Assembly: GCF_902833145.1 (NCBI RefSeq)
Contig: NZ_CADFEN010000010.1
Coordinates: 240,648 to 304,647, forward strand
Source: Burkholderia sp. BCC0506
GTDB lineage: Bacteria; Pseudomonadota; Gammaproteobacteria; Burkholderiales; Burkholderiaceae
Length of the DNA stretch: 64,000 bases
Direction of reading: 5' to 3'
In this document: piece by piece, positions 9,162-11,210 of the stretch
Numbering within the stretch: position 1 is the stretch's first letter
Layout of the letters: every line of letters begins with the position of its first letter
Position numbers and translations under genes: made by a program
Notes under the pieces: model-generated
Seen by the model: the letters and a program-made list of their open reading frames with translations, nothing else
What the model was told of the DNA's origin: nothing
The model's database searches: none

Positions 9162-10010
9162 ATGCTCGAACTCGTTTCCTCGCATGCGTGCCACGGCGGC
9201 GAGCAGCGTTTCTACCGTCACGATTCGGCAGTCATCGGCCTGCCGATGAAGTTCTCGGTGTACCTGCCGCCGCAGGCCGCGCACGGCCGCGTGCCGGCGC
9301 TGTTCTATCTCGCGGGGCTCACGTCCACCGACGAGACGTTCGCGATCAAGGGCGGCGCGCAGCAATATGCGGCGCAGCACGGCATCGCGCTCGTGATGCC
9401 CGACACGAGCCCGCGCGGCGCGGGCGTGCCGGGCGAGACCGATGCGTGGGACTTCGGCGTCGGCGCGGGCTTCTACGTCGATGCGACCGAAGCGCCGTGG
9501 TCGACGCATTACCGGATGGAGTCGTACGTGACGGGCGAGCTGCGCGAGCTCGTCGCGGCCGAGCTGCCGATCGACGGCGCGCGGCTCGGCATCTTCGGTC
9601 ACTCGATGGGCGGGCACGGCGCGCTGACGCTCGCGTTGCGTCATCCGGGCCTGTACCGGTCGGTGTCGGCGTTCGCGCCGATCGCCGCGCCGACGCGCTG
9701 CCCGTGGGGCGAGAAGGCGTTTTCCGGTTACCTCGGCGCCGATCGCGACGCATGGAAGGCGCACGACGCGAGCGAGCTGGTCGCGCGCGCCGATGCGCCG
9801 AAGTTCGCGGAGGGCATCCTCGTCGATCAGGGGCTTGCCGATCAGTTCCTCGCGAACCAGCTGAACCCGGACGTATTCGAAGCCGCGTGCGCGAAGGCCG
9901 GTCAGCCGCTGACGTTGCGCCGTCATCCGGGCTACGACCACGGGTACTACTTCATCTCGACGTTCATCGCCGATCACCTCGCGCATCACGCGCGCGTGCT
10001 GGCGCGGTGA
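9162..10010 (+). CDS. fghA: S-formylglutathione hydrolase
   Basis: It hydrolyses S-formylglutathione to formate and glutathione, completing glutathione-dependent formaldehyde removal. It has 282 residues with the alpha/beta-hydrolase serine esterase fold. The nucleophile elbow is FGHSMGGHGALT, and the catalytic His lies in the C-terminal HPGYDHGYYFISTFI. The oxyanion region is FYLAGLTSTDETF. The start at 9162 follows GGGGAGCGCACCGCC. It lies 17 bases behind frmA. Confidence 0.96.
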   Translation: MLELVSSHACHGGEQRFYRHDSAVIGLPMKFSVYLPPQAAHGRVPALFYLAGLTSTDETFAIKGGAQQYAAQHGIALVMPDTSPRGAGVPGETDAWDFGVGAGFYVDATEAPWSTHYRMESYVTGELRELVAAELPIDGARLGIFGHSMGGHGALTLALRHPGLYRSVSAFAPIAAPTRCPWGEKAFSGYLGADRDAWKAHDASELVARADAPKFAEGILVDQGLADQFLANQLNPDVFEAACAKAGQPLTLRRHPGYDHGYYFISTFIADHLAHHARVLAR

Positions 10011-10022
10011 GCGATCTCTGAC

Positions 10023-10055
10023 GCCACGTCGTTGCGCTCCGGCGGGCGACGTGGC
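10023..10055 (+). terminator. Possible hairpin terminator after frmA-fghA
   Basis: Nine-base arms GCCACGTCG (10023-10031) and CGACGTGGC (10047-10055) are fully complementary. No T-run follows, so it could be a weak or Rho-assisted terminator. It marks the edge between the detoxification operon and the odd cassette to the right. Confidence 0.4.
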
Positions 10056-10212
10056 TGTCATCCTTCGTTACTCATCCAACGGGGCGGTTGCCCGGAAAGA
10101 TCACCTGCTGCCGCAAATTCGTACTCGTTCTATAGGATATCGAATCGATTCGCCGAATAATGATCGACGATTTAATCGTCGTGAAATTTATTCGAGCGAG
10201 GCTTTGACCCGA

Positions 10213-10872
10213 ATGGATCGCATCGTTTGCGATGTATCAAACAACTCCCCGAACTGGGGGTTGATCAATCTGTTTGCGTGGAAACTTGTGCCCGAACGAT
10301 GGGCTGGCGGCATCAAATATATCCAGGCGTTCAAGGATGCGTGGGTCGTGCACAACAAGTCATCTATCCGCGTGGCAGCAGGGAGAAACCGTCTACCTCG
10401 GGAAATGCTCGCAGGCGTATGTTGGATCGAGGTGGCCGGTGACCCCGAATTCATCGATCGCGTTGCATTTGAAGTGCGCACGTTCGACTGGAGTGGTCCG
10501 GCATTTGTCGACAAGCATCTGACACTTACACGTCATCCCACGATGACATCGTTCGGTCCGGTGAGCATGCAGCTTCGCACGGCAGCACAAACACTCGGAA
10601 TGGATCCGTCGCAAATGTCAGCGTCGCAGTTCCGGAATTTGGCCCACTGCCTCCAGCGCGATGTTTTCAATATCGATGTGGTTGCGCGTCATTTGAGTCA
10701 ATTGGCGAAGAGCGATGGATTCCAGTATCCGTTCTCGATGGATCAAATTCGCATCGTCGGTGCTCGCTACAACCGAGGAAGCGGGTTGTCTCTCGAGCAA
10801 ATAAGACAAAATACCAGCTACGGTAACTTCATCGTTACGCATTGGTCGCGTTTCGCGCGGCTCATGCAGTAA
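10213..10872 (+). CDS. Lysozyme/lytic-transglycosylase-fold protein, candidate secreted effector
   Basis: I do not recognise a named family, but the order of motifs matches the SLT/lysozyme fold. It has a catalytic-type Glu73 in CWIEVAGDP, TSFGPVSMQLRTAAQTLG (residues 112-129), which matches the S-x-x-G-x-x-Q...TA..LG pattern, NIDVVARHLSQL (153-164), and GARYNRGSG (183-191), which matches the A-x-YN-x-G pattern. There is no signal peptide or membrane segment, so it would need lysis, type VI secretion or another route to reach peptidoglycan. Codon use and base composition are clearly less GC-rich than the neighbours, which suggests transfer. The start at 10213 is preceded by GCGAGG, but an upstream start at 10051 is open. 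A small membrane protein gene follows directly. Cleavage of peptidoglycan is inference. Confidence 0.6.
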   Translation: MDRIVCDVSNNSPNWGLINLFAWKLVPERWAGGIKYIQAFKDAWVVHNKSSIRVAAGRNRLPREMLAGVCWIEVAGDPEFIDRVAFEVRTFDWSGPAFVDKHLTLTRHPTMTSFGPVSMQLRTAAQTLGMDPSQMSASQFRNLAHCLQRDVFNIDVVARHLSQLAKSDGFQYPFSMDQIRIVGARYNRGSGLSLEQIRQNTSYGNFIVTHWSRFARLMQ

Positions 10873-10889
10873 TGCATCAGGATGCAAAC

Positions 10890-11186
10890 ATGGCTCGTCT
10901 CCTTCGCTTCGTCATTCACGTCGCATGTGTCATCGGATTGCTCGTCGTTATCGCGATCAGCGGGAACAAGTACGCGTGGATGCACGAAATCGATCCGTCC
11001 GTCGCGATCGGTGCGATCAAGGACGAAGCCGGCGACCATACGCTGGCCAGCTATGCATTGCTCGTGGTCGTTGCGACCGCGCAGATCGTGTTGCTCGCGA
11101 GGTCTGCGGCCACAGGTGCCAAACCATGGGTCGGGTTTCTGATCCTCGCGGCAACGGTGATGTGCGCATGGGGAGCGATCACGTAA
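10890..11186 (+). CDS. Small three-helix membrane protein, candidate immunity partner
   Basis: This 98-residue protein has predicted membrane segments near residues 6-24, 53-70 and 79-97. The positive N-terminus (MARLLRF) suggests N-in topology, which would put the acidic loop between helices 1 and 2 (MHEIDPSVAIGAIKDEAGDH) in the periplasm. The start at 10890 has AGGA 7 bases upstream. An ATG at 10872 overlaps the upstream stop (TAATG) and is an alternative. The gap to the lysozyme-fold gene is about 17 bases, so they are almost certainly co-transcribed. No family is recognised. An immunity role is inferred from position, size and location only; a holin-like role is the alternative. Confidence 0.6.
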   Translation: MARLLRFVIHVACVIGLLVVIAISGNKYAWMHEIDPSVAIGAIKDEAGDHTLASYALLVVVATAQIVLLARSAATGAKPWVGFLILAATVMCAWGAIT

Positions 11187-11210
11187 CGCCCCCCGCGGGC
11201 ATGCAGGGCA

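Follow-up and report, generated by a model that had tools for sequence, protein, structure and literature searches.

A candidate antibacterial effector-immunity pair in Burkholderia: a predicted cell-wall glycosidase beside a distant relative of DUF2645/YgiZ

What are two short, comparatively GC-poor open reading frames (ORFs) doing between two conserved chromosomal genes of Burkholderia sp. BCC0506? We consider it very probable that one encodes an antibacterial effector and the other the matching immunity protein, that is, a stand-alone wall glycosidase and an inner-membrane protector that arrived together by transfer. The stretch of contig NZ_CADFEN010000010.1 that was analyzed (64,000 nucleotides, hereafter the window) has the following features at this site:

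9162..10010, plus strand: fghA, left flank of the insertion site, which we take to encode S-formylglutathione hydrolase
10011..11210, unstranded: segment from the fghA stop to the znuB stop, holding effector and partner
10023-10031 and 10047-10055, unstranded: arms of a 9-bp inverted repeat 3' of fghA, found by eye, without a T run
10213..10872, plus strand: effector ORF, 219 aa, predicted lysozyme/SLT fold, phrog_11932 family, predicted catalytic Glu73, N-terminus not hydrophobic
10429..10431, plus strand: Glu73 codon (coordinate computed as 10213 + 72 x 3)
10890..11186, plus strand: immunity candidate ORF, 98 aa, three predicted membrane helices and an acidic loop
11211..12050, minus strand: presumably a znuB-like permease gene, right flank of the insertion site

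Both ORFs lie where the preliminary description had placed them, on one strand and 17 bases apart. That description had also called the pair less GC-rich than its surroundings, and its GC content is indeed 55.1%, versus 69.0% for the whole window, a value as low as that occurring in 0.5% of 631 equal-sized windows; GC3 is 0.61 for the effector and 0.74 for the partner, versus 0.93, 0.89, and 0.96 for frmA, fghA, and znuB. A match to fghA is present in 65/65 Burkholderia genomes, and among the best-scoring 30 of these 65 genomes the fghA-znuB gap measures 115 to 169 bp, with neither effector nor partner, in 26 (about 1.2 kb in three others and 657 bp in one). The gap is thus conserved and the pair an occasional insertion in it, which would have entered by transfer, and fghA/znuB is a more fitting name for the site than the frmA-fghA used at first. 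As to the hairpin boundary proposed behind fghA, the inverted repeat is there, but a terminator with a T run on the plus strand is not: the terminator scan returned a single site, on the minus strand, with 1.1 expected by chance.

The effector ORF contains no hydrophobic 19-residue stretch (highest Kyte-Doolittle mean, 0.66), in keeping with the absence of a signal peptide noted earlier. The SLT/lysozyme motifs named in the preliminary description are conserved: E73 and ten further positions (G76, S113, G115, Q120, R185, Y186, N187, G189, Y203, and G204) are invariant in 43/43 aligned relatives, an alignment without four fused, stop-containing, or broken sequences (L047, L051, L060, and L075) and 9 of 13 prophage rows. 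A Glu, Gly-x-x-x-x-Gln, and Tyr-Asn-x-Gly are the motifs of lytic transglycosylases; this superfamily pattern, catalytic Glu included, is present in the effector at the level of the fold, and profile comparison aligns Glu73 with the SLT catalytic Glu. Medium-confidence models (mean pLDDT of 65.7 and 67.3, with residues 77 to 119 below 50) predict a fold shared with lytic transglycosylases and goose-type lysozymes, the outcome that the preliminary description had anticipated; Foldseek returned nothing below E 0.4 for the first of them. Searches of Pfam, NCBIfam, and PDB sequences gave no significant match, and the effector does not reach the curated cut-off of Pfam SLT (PF01464), a profile that matches 3 of 11 family members at E values up to 1 and places the full-length protein of locus L017 above its cut-off. 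MltE, MltC, and Slt (Pfam SLT) share the fold and the Glu, Gly..Gln, and Tyr-Asn-x-Gly elements with the effector, which differs from them in its lack of an export signal, its effector-immunity context, and its lack of a Pfam SLT match. Homologues of the effector make up phrog_11932, which is listed with function unknown. Two sets of weak matches were discarded: one to CmoB/Methyltransf_9 (E 0.02-0.09, about residues 119 to 178), dismissed as chance because it covers the helices of the lysozyme core, and four at class level (E 7e-5 to 6e-4), set aside as generic SLT domains.

The second ORF, as first described, encodes a membrane protein: it has three hydrophobic 19-residue segments (residues 5-23, 52-70, and 80-98), and the loop that joins the first two helices is acidic. 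Across relatives the layout is of two or three helices, and a Tyr-x-Trp-Met behind helix 1 is common to most partners. The Burkholderia partner has no match in Pfam and no useful one in NCBIfam and so falls below the Pfam cut-off of PF10840 (DUF2645/YgiZ, a functionally uncharacterized E. coli membrane protein). The regions from E. coli, Serratia, and Rahnella have partners annotated as DUF2645 (named ygiZ in E. coli); those of E. coli and Serratia score above the PF10840 cut-off, and that of prophage locus L040 scores below it (E 0.028). When a hidden Markov model (HMM) built from three Burkholderia partners was iterated over the ORFs of the collected loci, its second round picked up YgiZ from K-12, ST131, and Serratia (E 0.001-0.007, relative to that pool), and five rounds recovered 31/34 of the ORFs that a DUF2645 HMM finds. 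The model has 73 matches, 64 of them in effector-matching loci; the remaining nine comprise ygiZ of K-12 and partner genes from the Burkholderia site. By iterated profile, then, the 98-aa partner is a distant relative of DUF2645/YgiZ, graded as distant because the direct Pfam scan was negative; the two occupy the same place behind the effector, although K-12 ygiZ stands without hcp and effector. Two tandem DUF2645-like ORFs follow the effector at L055:670-1543 and L048:818-1458, as if immunity alleles had accumulated. Within the part of the literature that was searched, we found no paper on DUF2645 and none linking ygiZ to type VI secretion, nor any type VI secretion system (T6SS) topic among ygiZ titles.

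Does the membrane protein belong to the effector? An ORF of 75 to 200 aa with at least two transmembrane segments lies directly downstream in 54/55 family loci (a set without L010, with L008 as its only Burkholderia locus, and with some near-identical plasmid pairs), compared with 3/180 control ORFs of the same loci (stop-to-stop frames of at least 220 residues, not all genes). The genes for effector and partner are therefore not independent of each other. Such an ORF is absent downstream at the Nostoc locus of the set and at L010, outside it. Within Burkholderia, an effector match (fragments included) occurs in 5/65 genomes, and all five have a partner match as well, in line with the pairing first proposed. 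Predicted fold and co-occurrence together support the original effector-immunity reading, with putative cleavage, secretion, and rescue. Three points go beyond the preliminary description: a T6SS route, read from hcp genes linked to the pair in relatives; the kinship of the partner with DUF2645/YgiZ; and the gene decay described below.

In the mechanism that we propose, the effector would act as a stand-alone glycosidase that cuts the glycan strands of peptidoglycan, with Glu73 as catalytic acid/base; as it carries no signal peptide, it would be harmless in the cytoplasm and would have to be injected into the periplasm of a target cell. In proteobacterial relatives the injector would most likely be a T6SS with Hcp as carrier, as linkage to hcp and tssL/tssM suggests. 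The partner would sit in the inner membrane with its acidic loop in the periplasm, where the loop would bind and block incoming copies of the enzyme, and similar modules elsewhere appear to travel on prophages and plasmids. To our knowledge, immunity proteins against periplasmic muramidases rarely reside in the inner membrane, so that a substrate near the membrane is conceivable. The pair could accordingly be an effector and immunity protein aimed at something other than mature peptidoglycan, for example, nascent lipid-linked glycan at the membrane: such a target would account for membrane-bound immunity and a predicted membrane partner in nearly all loci, and the low-confidence stretch at residues 77 to 119 could form a special substrate site. 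However, the family shows no variation at the catalytic-site positions of lytic transglycosylases, and no positive pointer to another substrate emerged, so that we regard this variant as improbable.

The gene neighborhoods bear on the route of delivery. Linkage to T6SS genes is seen in relatives and not at the window locus, where nothing adjacent to the Burkholderia pair encodes Hcp, VgrG, or another T6SS component. Hcp lies within 1.5 kb in 14/32 whole-genome loci (none in the other 18). Of 13 plasmid regions (the best 13 of 14 plasmid matches), seven, from Serratia, Rahnella, and E. coli, have hcp next to the pair, and those from Cronobacter, Streptomyces, and Nostoc lack it. At one locus (L057) the pair stands between TssL-like and TssM-like ORFs. 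The source genome has one Hcp match and one VipB match. This sole VipB/TssC match (G000:C16:41192-42099; L084 and L085) is frameshifted in the assembly and read in two overlapping frames; as such, the T6SS of the source genome may be inactive or misassembled.

In Streptomyces the effector domain forms the C terminus of proteins of 445 to 460 aa, which are followed by a membrane ORF, and one of two such proteins gives a weak match to a type VII secretion system (T7SS) signal (E 1.5e-4, below cut-off). A domain that swaps leaders while keeping its small membrane partner bears the mark of a polymorphic toxin. The Streptomyces plasmid fusions (L017:4164-5848 and L019:4158-5851), each followed by a three-helix membrane ORF, provide a Gram-positive setting of the module. 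At L047:16-3591, a 708-aa protein with the effector domain at its C terminus precedes two similar ORFs (187 and 181 aa), the first with three predicted helices. On a MAG contig labelled Kuenenia (L010:7938-12450), a 59% identical effector lies near ORFs that we take to be lipase-like and VgrG-like.

Viral sequences hold the pair too. Profile scans found 13 and 5 loci with effector homologues, while a viral scan with the effector alone as query found nothing and the partner had no homologue in the phage collection. In the first scan, hcp stands beside the pair in 5/5 viral contigs with enough flank; among the P2-like prophage loci of the second scan with room for it, hcp is present in 1/4 and absent in 3/4. 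In one P2-like prophage (L125:3001-4518), effector and DUF2645-like partner form a cargo block together with an hcp gene of the prophage itself. Could the pair, then, be what remains of a phage lysis cassette, namely, a prophage endolysin and a three-helix protein resembling a holin? The homologues form a phrog and occur in viral contigs, and an endolysin paired with a small membrane protein is a common arrangement in phages. Yet the pair was not found in the position of a lysis module: the L125 pair and its hcp lie among tail-type ORFs, and the window pair lies between fghA and znuB. The L125 phage has a separate endolysin-like ORF about 1.5 kb upstream of the pair, with two other ORFs between, and L030 and L040 each have a separate ORF that we take to be a GH19-like endolysin. 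Two effector queries against 50,697 phage records gave no match, and a role in lysis would not explain the link to Hcp, the place between tssL and tssM, or the T7SS-type fusions; we judge this origin very unlikely.

The pattern of loss fits an effector and its immunity protein. Intact pairs occur in 2/65 Burkholderia genomes, the source genome and Burkholderia sp. MS389 (locus L008; another relative, L009, is from B. puraquae). At the same site, five genomes show states of decay: the partner is kept beside a frameshifted effector (G031), beside an effector interrupted by a transposase-like gene (G020), beside a 24-residue effector remnant (G052), or with no effector (G062), and one genome retains only broken pieces of the partner (G013). 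Effector decay with the partner kept is the pattern expected from selection for protection against neighbors. A lytic transglycosylase with a housekeeping or structure-specific task (opening the wall for assembly of a secretion machine, for example) and with a membrane anchor or regulator would have the same fold and catalytic pattern, and one such enzyme, MltE, is known in T6SS assembly according to excerpts of PMC10433429, but sparse occurrence even with fragments counted, low GC content, the lack of a hydrophobic export signal, and decay of the enzyme gene while its partner stays make this scarcely credible.

In E. coli, the presumed immunity gene is far more widespread than the effector. 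Matches to ygiZ occur in 4566/5426 complete genomes (4549, about 84%, over at least 80% of the length), to the effector in 1254/5426 (1253 over at least 80%), and to the hcp of this locus in 1254/5426 (1249 over at least 80%); the whole hcp-effector-ygiZ triad is found over at least 80% in 1253 genomes, and ygiZ alone in about 3,300, by subtraction of totals rather than genome-by-genome matching. Because the genomes are clonally biased, these counts are not independent events. The hcp-effector block that directly precedes ygiZ in ST131 is missing from K-12 MG1655, with matching flanks, and K-12 ygiZ is likely an orphan immunity gene. In K-12 MG1655, ygiZ (L041:2479-2811) lies between mdaB and qseC. 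In E. coli X14-3 (L129), an IS1 occupies the expected place of ygiZ and leaves a 34-bp match to its 3' end, so that this strain has naturally lost the presumed immunity gene.

Among known systems, three come closest: Tge1/Tse3-Tsi3, whose fold class is the same but whose immunity type differs, and, by description, VT5 and the Pantoea hcp-island transglycosylase. Tge1 (Tse3)-Tsi3, a T6SS muramidase of Pseudomonas aeruginosa with its immunity protein, resembles the effector in predicted fold only: a phmmer search of all PDB chain sequences returned nothing up to E 10 and hence no sequence homology to Tse3. Tsi3 is reportedly a soluble periplasmic protein, unlike the partner with its three predicted membrane helices, and the genes of our relatives are hcp-linked, unlike those of Tge1-Tsi3. 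VT5, the Pantoea protein, and the SPI-19 LysM effector are set beside this family by description only. As excerpts of PMC3942780 describe it, a gene of a Pantoea ananatis Hcp island has homology to the phiKZ lytic transglycosylase or pesticin; like the family here, its product is a predicted glycan-cleaving T6SS effector beside hcp, but it has a PG_binding domain and its gene lies within a T6SS cluster, with hcp on one side and tagH on the other, and the term DUF2645 is absent from that paper. VT5 (excerpts of PMC6730261) denotes lysozyme-like T6SS effectors of ETEC from vgrG islands with a GLxQ motif; the family here would likewise be lysozyme-like T6SS cargo in E. coli, whereas it is hcp-linked and has G-x4-Q. 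T6EC3/T6IC3 (excerpts of PMC11148199) pairs a SleB-like, periplasmic, lytic-transglycosylase-like T6SS effector that needs its Glu with an immunity protein; by description, it differs in its SleB-like C-terminal domain and in the periplasmic localization signal of the immunity protein. PseM-PA0990, a T6SS endolytic muramidase with immunity protein, was ruled out as a relative by fold and signal peptide, since PseM carries a signal peptide and its authors found no structural homologue for its beta-sheet core (excerpts of PMC12494544). In two large effector predictions, SLT transglycosylase domains are common in a Klebsiella T6SS effector set, with a class 'Tme' for muramidase effectors (PMC12469244), and hundreds of predicted effector families are listed (PMC11148199), so single members of the family may already have been predicted; such collections may hold members without the reading given here.

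A broader proposal, which we hold to be about as probable as its negation, is that the pair belongs to a phylum-crossing module of phrog_11932 glycosidase and DUF2645-type immunity protein, which would travel with its own Hcp (T6SS) on prophages, plasmids, and chromosomes and carry T7SS-type leaders in Streptomyces, with inhibition at the inner membrane and with YgiZ as an orphan immunity protein shielding strains that lost the attacker or never had it. We know of no T6SS muramidase immunity protein that uses inhibition at the inner membrane. This would add a cell-wall effector family with an unusual membrane-bound immunity type to the T6SS list, and T6SS effector cassettes with their own Hcp to P2-like and Pseudomonas-like prophages. 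It would also give a testable function to phrog_11932 and to DUF2645/YgiZ, the product of a gene of most complete E. coli genomes, K-12 included. The comparison of relatives suggests that ygiZ is a remnant of such a protector gene, and because K-12 and ST131 differ cleanly at one locus with ygiZ kept, this orphan-immunity idea is directly testable.
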